DNA of 64,000 nt, from positions 1 to 64,000 of the forward strand of contig CALUVI010000005.1 of assembly GCA_944324185.1 (NCBI GenBank), written 5' to 3'. The stretch comes from Candidatus Gastranaerophilales bacterium. Its GTDB lineage: Bacteria; Cyanobacteriota; Vampirovibrionia; Gastranaerophilales; Gastranaerophilaceae. Under the pieces are notes generated by a model. That model was not told the DNA's origin. It saw only the letters and a list, made by a program, of their open reading frames with translations, and ran no database searches. The position numbers and the translations under genes are program-made. Below are positions 25,283-35,018 of this stretch, in pieces. Position 1 is the first letter of the stretch; every line of letters starts with the position of its first letter.

Positions 25283-25318
25283 AAATAGAACCGCTTTCTA
25301 TAAGAAGCGGTTCTATTT
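25283..25318. terminator. Bidirectional terminator after rpsP
   Basis: AAATAGAACCGCTT (25283-25296) pairs with AAGCGGTTCTATTT (25305-25318), a 14-bp stem with an 8-nt loop. It serves rpsP (+) and the convergent phosphatase gene (-), whose stop codon lies inside it. Confidence 0.8.
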
Positions 25319-25804
25319 ATTTGCAATCTTTTTCAGAAGATTTTCTGTCCATTTTATCATATTGGGATATCTTTTTGTATTATGTCCTCTTTGAATCCAT
25401 TCTTTTTCATTTTCTTCTTTTGTGCCTATATTTTTCAGTGTTTTGTAAACAAAAGAATACATTCCGGTTCTGTCGGCGCCTGCTTTGCAGTGAATGTGGG
25501 CTTTGCCGTTATTTTGGGCAATGTTTTTTATCAAGTCTAAAAAATCCATAACAGAATGTTTACGAGGTTTTGCAGAAACTGTCGGTATGTTATGGTATTT
25601 CATCCCGAGTGATTCGACAACTTTTTTTTCGTCAAAATCTAAGCCGGAGTTAGCCATTGTTCTAAAATTAATAACGTCTGTTACGCCCTGTTCTTTAAGC
25701 CATTTAAAATCATCTTTTTGAGGCTGGGCGGAGCGTGAAAGGAAATTATCTATTTTAGCGTAATTATCAGGTTTGCCTTTAAATGTGATTGGAAAGATTT
25801 TCAT
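25313..25804 (-). CDS. Dual-specificity/tyrosine protein phosphatase
   Basis: A 163-residue protein with the Cys-based phosphatase loop HCKAGADRTG (105-114; nucleophile Cys106, Arg112). The preceding NFRTMANSG and a region VTDVINFR fit the fused DSP/PTP-like group, which also includes inositol-phosphate phosphatases. It begins MKIFPITFKGKPDNY without a signal peptide; the ITFKG pentapeptide resembles the short N-terminal tag of other proteins in this lineage as I recall them. A TATAAA box lies 8 nt before the ATG with no ribosome site. The substrate is unknown. Confidence 0.8.
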   Translation of the reverse strand: MKIFPITFKGKPDNYAKIDNFLSRSAQPQKDDFKWLKEQGVTDVINFRTMANSGLDFDEKKVVESLGMKYHNIPTVSAKPRKHSVMDFLDLIKNIAQNNGKAHIHCKAGADRTGMYSFVYKTLKNIGTKEENEKEWIQRGHNTKRYPNMIKWTENLLKKIANK

Positions 25805-29316: not shown

Positions 29317-29829
29317 AATGACAATATTGTATTATAAAGCAAAAGCAGAATAAAGGGGGGGAGAAATGCAGGTTGGGTGAAACCATATATTTACAGAGCT
29401 TTTGTCGGGCTGAAGCCCGAACATACATTTACCCCAAAGAGGGCGAGGGAGAGGGGACAATAGAACGATAACGCGCATTCCTTCCACGGATAAATACATC
29501 CTGCTTGTAGTATCAAACCAATATATTTACCCCAGGAAGGTTAGGATGGGGATTAGTCTTGACTAACCCCCTCCCGCATTTGTAGCTCGCTAACGCTCAC
29601 ACAACTGCGACCTCCCCGCCGGAGAGGTGAGCACAATTTCAAGATAACGCAATAATTAAACAATAGTCTCAGTAGTGTGGAGCTTGCTCCACAAAATTTA
29701 ATTTATAATAAATTTACACAACTCTTGTGGAGCAAGCTCCACACTACTGCTATATTAAGGTCTTGAGAAGAATCCCTTTAACTTTAATTATTTATTTTGA
29801 CAAAGAATTATCCTTATCATACGATAAAG
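29317..29829. repeat. Composite intergenic repeat island F
   Basis: No gene is visible. Elements include a GGTTGGGTGAAACC hairpin (about 29371), GTCGGGCTGAAGCCCGA (29404-29420), inverted GGGGTAAAT (29427-29435, 29525-29533), an inverted copy of the GGGGAGGTCGCAGTTGTG unit (about 29575-29620), and two oppositely oriented copies of the GTGGAGC-type hairpin (29677-29692 and 29727-29742), 50 bp apart. The last 70 bases lead into the riboswitch. Confidence 0.82.
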
Positions 29830-30010
29830 AAAACTAAATACGGGGAAACTACGGTGGAATTCCGTGACTGTGCCGCAGCCGTAAAAGCCGGAATGCTCAA
29901 GAGCTCTCGTTCCATCCCTTCATAGGGGAGGGTGGGGGCTAATCTTAAAACAATGCTGCGAGTCACAGTTTTGTATGTAGCTTTCTTTTACTGCGGCGAA
30001 ATTTCCCTCA
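29830..30010 (+). ncRNA. Cobalamin riboswitch
   Basis: The conserved core is readable: GGGGAA (29842-29847), CGGTGGAATTCCG with the P4-like stem (29852-29864), GACTG, then TGCCGCAGCCGTAA (29871-29884), and the B12-box-like GCTGCGAGTCACAG (29955-29968). GCCGCAG (29872-29878) is perfectly complementary to CTGCGGC (29991-29997), the L5-L13 kissing loop that cobalamin riboswitches use to sense ligand. The variable middle (29900-29945) carries a purine-rich stretch like the local intergenic repeats. It precedes the start at 30057 by about 47 nt, so control of translation initiation is likely. Exact ends are approximate. Confidence 0.88.
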
Positions 30011-30056
30011 AAACAATACATAAGATAAACTAAAAAGCAGTAAAGGAAGTTTTTTA

Positions 30057-30764
30057 TTGGCAGGAATATCAGCCGGAGCCGGAAAAGTTAATACAGGAAC
30101 CTGTCCGCACGGAATGTCGCCGGGCGCCTGTCCTATTTGTTCGGGTATGGGCGGCGGAGGCAGCACAAGAATGGGCGAACGTCCGCAAAAAGCAGGTGAA
30201 TGGAGTTATCATCAGTGCGCAATGATTGGCGCAATGATGAGGGCAAGAGAACAGAGGCTTGAAGCTCATGAAAAAAATCTGCTCAACCATGCGCAACAGC
30301 TTTTGCAGTTTCAGCAAAACCTGGAGAAATTAGCGCAAAAAATGATTGATTTTATCAATCAAAGTTCAACCGGCTTTATTTTAAAACCTGTTGTGTATAC
30401 AATTAGTAATATCGTCGTTGGCGGAGTAAATAACCTTATAAAAGGTATAGCTGCTGTCCTTAATGTAATTTCTAATATTAAAGACAAACTATCTCAAATC
30501 AAACAGAAACTGGTCGATATTCAGGATAAGCTTAATGCTATATTCGGGGAAGCAAAGGCTTTTATTGAAAAAAAAGTCTCTGAAATCGTAAGCACGGTAA
30601 AATCGAAACTGGAAGGACTTTTTAAGATTTTTAAAAGAAATAACACAAAAGACGATGATACAAAAATTGATGAAGATAAAAAAATATTTAATCTAAAAAC
30701 CATATTACACAAAATCATGCGAAGAAAGAAAAAAGATGATACCGAAAGTGAATCTGGATCTTGA
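30057..30764 (+). CDS. Cys/His-motif protein under cobalamin riboswitch control (unknown function)
   Basis: A 235-residue protein with a TTG start behind AAGGAAG. Near the N-terminus TCPHGMSPGACPICSG (15-30) places Cys16, His18, Cys25 and Cys28 as a probable metal- or cofactor-binding site, followed by a Gly-rich run. Residues about 60-105 are a charged helix (RAREQRLEAHEKNLLNHAQQ). A moderately hydrophobic stretch spans about 115-145, then a long Lys-rich helical tail. It is not a known B12 uptake or synthesis protein. Riboswitch control implies a role in cobalamin or cobalt use, or in a B12-replaceable process; that is inference. It overlaps the next gene by 29 bp. Confidence 0.75.
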   Translation: MAGISAGAGKVNTGTCPHGMSPGACPICSGMGGGGSTRMGERPQKAGEWSYHQCAMIGAMMRAREQRLEAHEKNLLNHAQQLLQFQQNLEKLAQKMIDFINQSSTGFILKPVVYTISNIVVGGVNNLIKGIAAVLNVISNIKDKLSQIKQKLVDIQDKLNAIFGEAKAFIEKKVSEIVSTVKSKLEGLFKIFKRNNTKDDDTKIDEDKKIFNLKTILHKIMRRKKKDDTESESGS

Positions 30765-32250
30765 ATCTTCAAGACATCAGAAAAATATGACAAATACTCA
30801 AAAAAAGAATGACACCTATGTTAAAGAAGGTGTTATTGTAAACACGTTTGTCAAAGACCCGCTGCTTGAAGGACCAAAGTCATCACCACTTAACGAAACT
30901 TACGATACACTTGTAATATCTGATGAAATACCACTTCCTTCGGGTGTTTACGAAAAAGAGGATAAAAACAAAAGTCCGCTTTTGCCATTGTGCGCGGCGA
31001 CAGTAGGTGTGATGGCTTTGCTGGGCGGATTTACCGCAATGATGAAAAAGTTTTCCAAAGGCAAGTTAGAGAGTTCAAAAGAATATCTGCTGCCGGGAAT
31101 TACAAGAAACCACTGCATTAATGACGAGATTCACCAGAGTATTTTTAGTATGATTCAATCTCCGAGCAGGAAAACAATCCTCGCATCACTGGGCGTGATT
31201 ACATTAGGCTCAATGGCTTTTATGGGAAAAATATTTATTGACGGGTTTAAGGAGGTCTGGGTCAAAAAACAGGAGGCTGATATTCAGAAAAATTTGCAGG
31301 AAAACCTGATTGCGGTTGAAACACGCTCTTTTTCAGGAAAAATTCAGATTATAAGGAGTATGCTCTCTTCTAAAGCCAAAGCGTTTTCAGAAGAGCTTGC
31401 GCCGGAAAAACCGTACGAAAATACTTCTTTTAAAGCCAAAGAAAAACAAGATAAAAATAATGATAACAAATCTCTTATGATTGCAGGCGGAATAACGCTG
31501 CTTTCAATTTTAGGACTCGGCTACTGGGCAGTTAGAAACATCAGAAAAAGTGACGAATTTATTACAAAAGGGCTGAAAAATACCAGAAAAGGGCTGGATA
31601 ATGTAATAGATGATTTTAATAAAAATAAGCCGATAGGAGAAATTCAGGGACATAACGGAGAAGTTTTGACCGGAAAAGAGGCGTACAAGCTTCTTATAGA
31701 AAACCTTCTGGAATCTGTTTATGCAAGACCTGATGAAGTTAAGCAAACCGTAGATAAAATGAATCTGCCTCTAAAGGAGAAAGCAGAGTATTTAAACCGG
31801 CTTCTTGACAGTATGAATCAGGCAACTGAAAAGGTTAATCCGATGATGGGCGGAAGCGGCAGAAATAAAATTACTTATTTTTCCCACGTAAATGATTATC
31901 TTTCGTTTTTCTATGACTGGCTTATGAACCCTAAAAACCCTCAGTTTAAAAATCTGTTTTTCGGTATTGCCGGAATTTCAGCACTTGCCTACGGCGGTAA
32001 AGCTGCAGCAGAAGCTGTTAAAGAAGTGCAGGTAAAAAAATACAACGCGCAGATTGAATTAAACCTGCAAAACAGGCTTGTGTCTACCGAACTTCGTAAC
32101 TTTAAAGCAAAAAAAGAGTCTGCAATAGAACCTTTATGCGATGAGTTTTTCAAGCAAAAAGAAAACGGAAAATCCAACGAAGAGTTAAAAATTATAGCCG
32201 ACAATATTTTGTTTGAAATCAAAAATGGTCCACCGTTTGTTTATTCTTAA
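30736..32250 (+). CDS. Membrane protein with internal duplication, second gene of the cobalamin-controlled operon
   Basis: A 504-residue protein of unknown family with about four transmembrane helices (near 82-103, 147-168, 246-266 and 406-424). Two segments are clearly related: residues 172-202 (KEVWVKKQEADIQKNLQEN...) and 429-460 (KEVQVKKYNAQIELNLQNR...). Each directly follows a membrane helix, so the protein arose by duplication of a helix-plus-coil unit. Cysteines are few. It starts inside the riboswitch-controlled Cys/His gene and should share its regulation. The stop overlaps the convergent HAD gene by 4 bp. Confidence 0.7.
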   Translation: MIPKVNLDLESSRHQKNMTNTQKKNDTYVKEGVIVNTFVKDPLLEGPKSSPLNETYDTLVISDEIPLPSGVYEKEDKNKSPLLPLCAATVGVMALLGGFTAMMKKFSKGKLESSKEYLLPGITRNHCINDEIHQSIFSMIQSPSRKTILASLGVITLGSMAFMGKIFIDGFKEVWVKKQEADIQKNLQENLIAVETRSFSGKIQIIRSMLSSKAKAFSEELAPEKPYENTSFKAKEKQDKNNDNKSLMIAGGITLLSILGLGYWAVRNIRKSDEFITKGLKNTRKGLDNVIDDFNKNKPIGEIQGHNGEVLTGKEAYKLLIENLLESVYARPDEVKQTVDKMNLPLKEKAEYLNRLLDSMNQATEKVNPMMGGSGRNKITYFSHVNDYLSFFYDWLMNPKNPQFKNLFFGIAGISALAYGGKAAAEAVKEVQVKKYNAQIELNLQNRLVSTELRNFKAKKESAIEPLCDEFFKQKENGKSNEELKIIADNILFEIKNGPPFVYS

Positions 32251-33029
32251 CAAAATCTTTCCATTGCTTTTACAAAACCGTCATTAAAAACAGTGTCTGT
32301 TGTATAATTTGCGACCTGCTTTAATTCTTCTGTTGCATTACCCATTGCAACACGTATTCCGCCGGCTTTTAAGAGGGCAATGTCGTTGTTTTGGTCGCCT
32401 ATTGTTAAAGTCTCTTCTTCTTTTATTCCCCAATAATTTTGCAGGAATTGTACAGCGCAGTATTTTGAAGCTTCTTTGTTTGAAAATTCAAGGAAATACG
32501 GAGTTGATTTAACTATATAAAGTTCAGGAAAAATCTCCGGCAATTCTTTTTCTAACCTGTCGATTTTATCCGGATTAGAATAATCAATTGCAAGGAGTTT
32601 ATTAACCTTGTCTTTTTTTATATCTTTAAAGGCGCAAATTTCATACTCTGTATGCAAATTATTGCAATAGCGCTCAATTTCATAACACTCTTTTTCAGAA
32701 TACAAAATATCATCGTTATACAAATTTATATGAATGTTTTCCTCTTTTGCACAATCGAGAATTTTCTCTGTCTGCTCCGGTGTCAGGCATCTCTCGTAGA
32801 GGGTTTTATCCTGATACTTTATTAATCCGCCCTGATAAGATACAACAGGAGTATCAAGCCCTAAATCATCTGCAATCCTTGTTGCTGCAGCGTTCATCCT
32901 GCCGGTTACAAGGACAACTTTTATTCCTTTATTGCATAATTTGCGAACACACTGTTTTACTCCTTCGGTAAAGTTGCCTTCAGGAATTAAAAGCGTACCG
33001 TCAATATCAGTTGCAACAAGTTTTATCAT
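32247..33029 (-). CDS. Cof-type HAD-superfamily phosphatase
   Basis: A 260-residue soluble hydrolase. DIDGTLL (8-14) supplies the nucleophile Asp8 and acid/base Asp10. VVLVTGR (motif II), a C2B-type cap and GDQNNDIALLKAGG (motif IV) complete the Cof group. These enzymes dephosphorylate sugar phosphates, nucleotides or cofactors such as pyridoxal or FMN; the substrate here is unknown. It overlaps the TolC-family gene upstream by 4 bp and is probably in one transcript with it. Confidence 0.88.
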   Translation of the reverse strand: MIKLVATDIDGTLLIPEGNFTEGVKQCVRKLCNKGIKVVLVTGRMNAAATRIADDLGLDTPVVSYQGGLIKYQDKTLYERCLTPEQTEKILDCAKEENIHINLYNDDILYSEKECYEIERYCNNLHTEYEICAFKDIKKDKVNKLLAIDYSNPDKIDRLEKELPEIFPELYIVKSTPYFLEFSNKEASKYCAVQFLQNYWGIKEEETLTIGDQNNDIALLKAGGIRVAMGNATEELKQVANYTTDTVFNDGFVKAMERFC

Positions 33030-34372: not shown

Positions 34373-34927
34373 CTAAACTTTTGTTTTCTTGAACCAGTTA
34401 ACCGGATTCAACTTAGAAAAGAAGCTTGTTTTTTGAACAGGCGGCTTTTTCTTGCCCCTGAATACAAGAGCCAGCGAACCTATCATAAGAAGTCCTGCTG
34501 CAATTCCTTTTACTGCCTTAGGGATTCTATCAAAGAATGAAAGAGTGCCGTCTAAATGTGCGGAAACATTTCCGCCTACGTCATTAAATCCGCCCCAGGC
34601 ATTTGCGCCTGCTTGAGAATTTGTTCCTATTCCTCCGAGACCGAAAGCGTTTAATCCCGCGCTTGATTCAGCCCCTATTCCCTGCATACCCCACGCATTT
34701 TTCCCCGCCTGAGAATTTACGGCAAGCTGCTGCATACCGAACGGGGAAGAGTATGTAAAACTGTCTCCGTACATTCCGTGATTTTGATATAAAGAGCCCT
34801 GCATTGCACTTTGAAGATAAGGATTTGCAATCCCGGAAGATACGTTAACTCCATTGCATAAATCATACGGTACATAATCTATGATTCCGTGAGAATACAA
34901 ATTGTTTAATGTAAACGGGTTCGTCAT
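34373..34927 (-). CDS. Gly/Ala/Asn repeat protein with C-terminal membrane helix
   Basis: A 184-residue protein starting MTNPFTLNNL, chosen because AAAGG lies upstream; an in-frame ATG nine codons earlier is less likely. Three imperfect repeats of about 16 residues (NSQAGKNAWGMQGIG, ESSAGLNAFGLGGIG, NSQAGANAWGGFNDVG) occupy residues about 70-120. A hydrophobic helix (AVKGIAAGLLMIGSLALVF) and a basic tail follow. It has no N-terminal signal peptide. A C-tail-anchored membrane scaffold is plausible; no family could be named. Confidence 0.6.
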   Translation of the reverse strand: MTNPFTLNNLYSHGIIDYVPYDLCNGVNVSSGIANPYLQSAMQGSLYQNHGMYGDSFTYSSPFGMQQLAVNSQAGKNAWGMQGIGAESSAGLNAFGLGGIGTNSQAGANAWGGFNDVGGNVSAHLDGTLSFFDRIPKAVKGIAAGLLMIGSLALVFRGKKKPPVQKTSFFSKLNPVNWFKKTKV

Positions 34928-35018
34928 ATCAAAATACCTTTCACTAACACACATATATATAAAGTTATTTTTTGTTAAAAAATTGCTTTATTTGTAAAGC
35001 TTTGTTACGATAAGTTTT

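Follow-up and report, generated by a model that had tools for sequence, protein, structure and literature searches.

Introduction

The described systems closest to the one considered here are the AdoCbl-II riboswitches (Rfam family RF01689) and, among the genes placed behind cobalamin riboswitches, the uptake genes btuB-btuCDF, the enzyme genes metE and nrdDG, and ppe2 of M. tuberculosis. BtuC represents the standard B12-uptake permease and CbiC is a marker of cobamide synthesis; class II NrdJ, a ribonucleotide reductase, needs adenosylcobalamin. The genes metE and nrdD stand in for the B12-dependent metH and nrdJ, which is the classical logic of these riboswitches. Cobamides are traded in gut communities, and the Gastranaerophilales form a widespread and mostly uncultured group of gut bacteria related to the cyanobacteria.

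In the present work, we analyzed a window of 64,000 nucleotides (the whole stretch under study) from a Candidatus Gastranaerophilales genome, in which a cobalamin riboswitch precedes two uncharacterised genes, hereafter P1 and P2; the sequence and the ORFs of positions 29500-32800 were examined. The riboswitch shares with AdoCbl-II the junction of helices P3-P6, the GGAA junction motif and a pairing (predicted here) of loop L5 with a downstream loop; moreover, in the source genus it lacks the large class I insertion. It differs in having a lineage-specific variable hairpin, an L5 partner located in an arm able to pair with a Shine-Dalgarno sequence, and targets belonging to protein families unreported for cobalamin riboswitches in the literature searched. 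The btuB-btuCDF genes have the same riboswitch, presumably with the same logic, and in two relatives (G051 and G056) btuBCDF, nrdDG and P1-P2 lie each behind a separate riboswitch; unlike them, P1, P2 and a third family, P3, include no TonB receptor, FecCD permease, ABC ATPase or binding protein. In the same way, metE and nrdDG are found by the same riboswitch model in relatives, but they code for enzymes with B12-dependent twins, whereas P1-P3 show no enzyme family. Lastly, the M. tuberculosis ppe2 locus resembles ours in its class II-like switch, a target gene of uncertain function and overlapping ORFs downstream, and differs from it in encoding a PPE protein together with cobQ-cobU, the proteins and the lineage being unrelated (PMC11260477). 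In the open-access literature that we searched, neither this operon nor any cobalamin riboswitch of the Gastranaerophilales is reported.

Results

Class and Conservation of the Riboswitch

A previous sequence-only reading had recognized a cobalamin-riboswitch core at this locus and proposed that it be scored with the RF00174 model. The core is real: its cmscan match to RF01689 (29831-29906, + strand) exceeds the gathering score of 36.5 bits (Table 1) and its helices covary. The good score was obtained with RF01689 and not with RF00174, whose best match in the source genome reached 16.9 bits, under the cut-off of 31.5 bits, and the subfamily is thus AdoCbl-II; homologues from another family of the order (f3) do pass the RF00174 cut-off. 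According to the searches, which included RF00174 and R1 (the model of the present work), this is the only cobalamin riboswitch in the whole 1.97-Mb genome, which is of the Gastranaerophilales type.

In the alignment of the relatives, 93.8% of the cells of the core helices are paired and 9 of the 13 pairs show double changes, with none of 500 shuffles being as good; this covariation is well above both shuffles and slid controls. The junction bases are near-invariant, while the helices carry compensatory changes. The complementarity of seven nucleotides between L5 and its downstream partner, also pointed out in the sequence-only reading, is found 7/7 at exactly the same positions. Among the relatives, 39 of 127 sequences contain, farther downstream, the exact complement of their L5, versus a mean of 0.5 when the L5 letters are shuffled, and the two sides covary: the two commonest variants are GCCGCAA/TTGCGGC and GCCGCAG/CTGCGGC, and a further pair is ACCGCAA/TTGCGGT. 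The complementarity is therefore more than chance would give, the loop-loop contact itself being predicted. Cobalamin would be the ligand of the riboswitch at 29831-29906, and the regulation of P1-P2 has all the certainty that sequence comparison can provide.

Table 1. Features of the riboswitch-P1-P2 locus (positions in the window).
Feature	Position	Strand	Evidence and remarks
Sigma-70-like promoter, TTGACA-17-TACGAT	29797..29825	+	10/12 consensus matches; directly upstream of the aptamer
Cobalamin riboswitch aptamer core, AdoCbl-II type	29831..29906	+	RF01689, 39.9 bits; model R1, 81.8 bits; covariation
L5 loop, GCCGCAG	29872..29878	+	Direct reading; partner CTGCGGC at 29991-29997; covariation in relatives
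Peripheral hairpin, variable, in the core-platform interval	29902..29943	+	Fold z-score -3.1
Small hairpin, loop CGAGTCA	29950..29974	+	CGNGTCA-like loop kept within the genus (sequence comparison)
Expression-platform arm, CTTTCTTTTACTGCGGC	29981..29997	+	Includes the L5 partner; predicted pairing
Opposite arm, GCAGTAAAGGAAG	30037..30049	+	Includes the P1 Shine-Dalgarno; pairs with 29981-29994 in the local fold
P1, 235 aa, TTG start, with TCPHGMSPGACPICSG	30057..30764	+	C-x-H-x6-C-x-x-C knuckle plus GGG in the N-terminal part, followed by amphipathic/coiled helices
Motif CPHGMSPGACPIC, P1 residues 16-28	30102..30140	+	C16, H18, C25 and C28 invariant in alignments A4 and A6
P2, 504 aa, membrane protein	30736..32250	+	Two copies of a unit of TM plus helix of about 75 residues

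Promoter, Leader and Expression Platform

The genes flanking P1-P2 on the two sides, a MatE-family gene and an HAD hydrolase gene, are on the opposite strand; since both neighbors run the opposite way, P1-P2 should represent a transcription unit of its own behind the promoter-like sequence. Sigma-70-like sites are no commoner in this region than in shuffles, so that it is the position that supports the candidate in Table 1.

The full leader folds slightly better than shuffles (z = -1.29). The local fold joining the platform arm to the Shine-Dalgarno arm is not better than shuffles (z = -0.76); the support for Shine-Dalgarno pairing is, thus, positional and comparative. Moreover, the minimum-energy fold offers the 5' end of the leader as an alternative partner of the platform arm (29981-29994), and for this reason the direction of the switch is taken from the riboswitch class, according to which it would be an OFF switch. 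Reading the leaders of three other families (f3, f5 and f6) disclosed terminator-like hairpins instead of the Shine-Dalgarno pairing of the genus; judging from these sequences, the platform differs between families while the linkage to the riboswitch stays.

The peripheral hairpin varies freely in length and sequence from species to species. At this place, the source genome and four other loci (L017, L030, L039 and L041) have species-specific GC-rich palindromes or short tandem repeats, and the interval between core and platform has, on this comparison, the look of an insertion site for small repeats within the riboswitch. Upstream of the operon (29670-29749) there is an almost perfect inverted repeat of 30 bp with a loop of 20 nt (93% complementary), which is the sole source of some miRNA-type Rfam matches; these were discarded as artefacts.

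The P1 and P2 Proteins

The protein with a Cys/His motif that the sequence-only reading had placed directly after the riboswitch is P1. Its C-x-H-x6-C-x-x-C arrangement is an ordinary zinc-knuckle pattern. P1 has no curated Pfam or NCBIfam family above cut-off and no relative in the PDB; its best NCBIfam match, the anti-phage protein ZorA (NF033916), was rejected, scoring 20.9 versus 250 bits and covering the coiled-coil portion only.

The start of P2 overlaps the end of P1 by 29 nt on the same strand. P2 had been described as a four-helix membrane protein with an internal duplication, and both traits are borne out: its four hydrophobic segments (residues 79-104, 146-171, 244-267 and 407-425) show by hydropathy a predicted membrane protein, and its two halves align with a score of 103, whereas shuffles reached at most 59 (hhalign probability 94%, E = 1.1e-7, 70 columns). 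These data confirm that the duplication is genuine, the unit being a membrane helix that continues as a helix of about 75 residues. As for P1, no curated Pfam or NCBIfam family above cut-off and no PDB relative were found.

Taken together, the searches of P1 and P2 against Pfam, NCBIfam, PHROGs and the PDB turned up just coiled-coil or apolipoprotein-like chance matches under the cut-offs. Confidence in the structure models is low (pLDDT 61 for P1 and 61.9 for P2) and the fold searches with them were uninformative: Foldseek retrieved nothing for P2 at E <= 0.001, and the best VIA matches (Z 8.5) were unrelated long-helix proteins. In the search for horizontal mobility, P1 was not matched in phages and P2 was not matched in plasmids.

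Some observations concern other proteins. Many unrelated proteins of the lineage have, within a linker or close to the N-terminus, an (I/V/S)-x-F-K-G or S-F-S-G motif, e.g., the product of 25313-25804 (-) in the window, P2 at about residue 231, the proteins at L061 5354-6895 and L133 3904-5139, one of L258, and a phosphatase-like protein (MKIFPITFKG); the motif is possibly a lineage-specific sorting or processing signal. The window also encodes, at 34373-34954 (-), a protein of 193 aa that combines repeats rich in Gly/Asn/Ser (SSAGLNAFGLGGIGTNSQAGANAWGG) with a membrane segment at its C-terminus and has no match in Pfam or NCBIfam.

Linkage of the Riboswitch with P1 and P2

P1 homologues were found in 60 of 77 relatives, i.e., in 45 of the 46 genomes of the genus and in 15 from other families of the order, and in none of nine genomes from other orders; P2 adjoins P1 in nearly all the relatives bearing the latter. 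The R1 model detected the riboswitch in 45 of the 46 genomes of the genus, the strong match being the one upstream of P1, and all 45 same-genus genomes with P1-P2 homologues have it. In G024, P1, P2, P3 and the riboswitch are all missing together.

Scanning 84,980 species genomes for the P2 profile, we retrieved 306 loci. Among the best 80 of these, P2 is preceded by the riboswitch and P1 in 78, and the contigs of the other two start inside P2, so that the linkage holds at 78 of 78 evaluable loci; these loci coincide in part with the 45 same-genus genomes, but more than 20 are additional and come from farther members (47-55% identity). The best 80 loci come from MAGs labelled as Gastranaerophilales, Melainabacteria or cyanobacteria, from unlabelled gut or rumen bins and, in two cases, from MAGs labelled 'Acinetobacter'. 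In four other families of the order (f3, f5, f6 and f7), the riboswitch is present at 14 of 15 loci, the exception (L057 in G063) being without it even with the filters off. Order-wide, P2 is near universal (258 of 286 genomes). Twenty-two genomes without P2 were searched, and 14 of them, including all seven listed of genus g46, have no cobalamin riboswitch at all.

The homologues in other genomes, which the sequence-only reading had proposed to look for, thus nearly always lie behind the riboswitch (45/45, 78/78 evaluable and 14/15). As far as sequence comparison goes, the link between riboswitch, P1 and P2 is not accidental and recurs across the whole order.

In two other orders of the class, a cobalamin riboswitch precedes a different uncharacterised protein, of 506 aa at L128 (1650-3170, -) and of 581 aa at L129 (1414-3159, +); the two proteins are 34% identical to each other, and in L129 a glycine-rich protein of 226 aa follows. 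We rejected the identification of the 506- and 581-aa proteins with P2 (hhalign probability <= 0.2%); a weak hhalign match of the 226-aa protein with P1 (68%) did not find support in hmmsearch. These loci may represent a parallel system.

P3 and the Organization of the Locus

The third family, P3, includes proteins of 130-210 aa with the conserved sequence ...SPNIQTFLAGIYRK...EEIGGAIL..., and no curated family above cut-off was found for it in the Pfam and NCBIfam searches. Its gene lies directly 3' of P2 at many loci of other genera in the source family and also in f5 and f7. In the source genus, where P3 was found in 42 of the 46 genomes searched, it is usually unlinked to P1-P2 (in the source genome, at G000:C26:12153-12563); it is absent from G001, G024, G036 and G040, and the G003 and G006 hits represent fragments located where contigs end. 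Within this genus, P3 sits after a sigma-factor-like gene and a prepilin-peptidase-like gene, in a conserved run often near flagellin. At L243 (7151-9252, -), the order is sigma-factor-like, prepilin-peptidase-like and P3, with an MlaE-like gene close by. In one family, an AAA+ ATPase gene is located 3' of P1-P2 on the same strand (L061, 5354-6895, +), and in one group of loci FliD-like genes are found upstream of the riboswitch.

Four genomes of genera g43 and g54 have a riboswitch-P1-P3 arrangement with no P2 recognizable by profile, and three of the four have a second P3. Since these genomes keep riboswitch and P1 without P2, P1 is the constant partner and P2 a replaceable one. The sequence-only reading had suggested a new cobalamin- or cobalt-linked membrane system: two uncharacterised genes do lie under a cobalamin riboswitch and a membrane system fits P2, but P2 is replaceable, as these four genomes show.

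B12 Synthesis, Uptake and Use in the Order

The other R1 matches in the relatives precede nrdD with an activase-like radical SAM gene, metE, btuB-btuC-btuD-btuF, a cobT-like gene, and cbiM-cbiN (the last in G060); the targets were identified by reading their translations, and BtuC by Pfam. Since these matches sit on btuB-btuCDF, metE, nrdDG and cbiMN, the R1 model picks up true cobalamin regulons.

Class II NrdJ is present in 20 genomes of the order outside the source family (in G059 as two half genes). Among the genomes of the order searched, CbiC occurs only in G046, G048 and G060, all three without P1-P2, and a full-length BtuC only in G051, G052, G054, G056 and G061, the last without NrdJ; a partial FecCD match in G057 (28.1 bits) was left out of the BtuC count. 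P1-P2 is present in every one of the 13 NrdJ-positive genomes that lack both CbiC and full-length BtuC, versus two of the seven NrdJ-positive genomes with either of them (G051 and G056). For this gap in the known B12 sources, Fisher's test gave p = 0.0014, or p = 0.005 by genus and p = 0.14 (not significant) by family-state, and these values are optimistic because the genomes are related. In the wider sample, BtuC is rare, being full-length in 23 of 286 genomes, and BtuC and P2 are only weakly opposed (BtuC in 5 of 28 P2-negative genomes, p = 0.06). A strict mutual exclusion of P1-P2 and BtuC was dropped after this sampling, in which 18 of the 258 P2-positive genomes have BtuC.

In the source genus, no NrdJ, BtuC (FecCD) or CbiC was found in the 46 genomes. 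One of them, G018, encodes a MetH bearing the cobalamin-binding DxHxxG motif, lacks CbiC and BtuC and carries P1-P2; long frames of G005, G019 and G023 give similar strong matches of the B12-binding type. In the source genome, NrdJ, MetH, BtuC and CbiC are all absent, and there are only two radical-SAM proteins of B12-binding families.

Discussion

P1-P2 is probably a new way of getting, or of managing without, vitamin B12. In our main reading, to which we give a probability of about 0.5, the operon is a cobalamin-repressed cobamide-acquisition module of the Gastranaerophilales, which would help the cell to obtain cobamides (B12 and its relatives) in times of shortage. In the cobalamin-bound state, the core and the L5-platform pairing would favor the pairing of the P1 Shine-Dalgarno with arm 29981-29994; this would be sequestered, and neither P1 nor the overlapping P2, probably translationally coupled to it, would be made, whereas both would be made with cobalamin absent. 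We infer both the acquisition function and the roles of the proteins: P2 may act as a scaffold in the inner membrane, from which its two long helices would project, P1 a soluble metal-knuckle adaptor with amphipathic helices, and P3 a HEAT-like partner, unlinked in the source genus and 3' of P2 elsewhere.

Acquisition is favored because P1-P2 is carried by all 13 NrdJ-positive genomes lacking CbiC and BtuC and by only two of the seven with either; furthermore, both CbiC and BtuC are missing from most P1-P2 carriers. The three CbiC-positive genomes without P1-P2, the case of G018 and the joint loss in G024 speak for it as well. Against it stand the lack of likeness of P1, P2 and P3 to any transporter, receptor or ATPase, the operons without P2, and the non-significant test at the level of families. 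Since P1-P2 also occurs in genomes with BtuC, it is no simple replacement of the latter. One could go as far as to see in P1-P2-P3 a categorically new acquisition system, working order-wide on the cobamides of neighbors without BtuCDF or any other known transporter; we advance this only tentatively. The main difficulty for acquisition is that little B12 use is visible in the source genome, where the use of cobamides is not established, and for this reason two other explanations stay alive.

According to one of them, P1-P2-P3, switched on at low B12, does without the vitamin what a cobamide-dependent protein otherwise does. The same genomes have nrdDG and metE under the riboswitch, and this explanation would account for the retention of the module in a genus without NrdJ, BtuC and CbiC, as well as for its absence from the CbiC-positive genomes, which would never be short of B12. 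On the other hand, P1, P2 and P3 have no catalytic motif or enzyme family and a scaffold-like look, and no known B12-dependent protein has an occurrence that tracks P1-P2; we thus consider it rather unlikely. This same scaffold-like look would suit the other explanation, in which the genes build an envelope, motility or adhesion structure and B12, itself not handled, signals the nutrient state or the place in the gut. The gene run containing P3 in the source genus (with the sigma-factor-like and prepilin-peptidase-like genes, often near flagellin) and the FliD-like genes of one locus group point in this direction, and M. tuberculosis ppe2 would be a precedent for it (PMC11260477). However, neighborhoods vary by family, flagellar-like genes are found at few loci only, and this reading does not predict that all three CbiC-positive genomes of the order should be without the module, which makes a role of B12 as a mere cue not very probable either.

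It is much harder to maintain that the P1 knuckle binds cobalt and that the pair moves or stores it for cobamide repair or synthesis. The C-x-H-x6-C-x-x-C residues are indeed invariant, and the cobalt transport genes cbiMN are behind a cobalamin riboswitch in one relative (G060); the tested carriers of P1-P2, however, lack CbiC, and therefore make no B12 de novo, and the P1 motif is not peculiar among zinc knuckles. We regard this as very unlikely. Lastly, the riboswitch might be a decayed relic with no regulatory role, as its RF01689 score barely over the cut-off and the modest folding of the full leader might suggest, but near-invariant junction bases, compensatory helix changes and its maintenance across families despite changed platforms make this highly improbable.

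Three nameless protein families are now tied, order-wide, to a cobalamin riboswitch. If acquisition is their true function, they would fill a gap in those genomes that have a B12-dependent ribonucleotide reductase and lack both CbiC and BtuC. Whichever reading holds, the level of B12 provides a testable physiological handle on these uncharacterised proteins.
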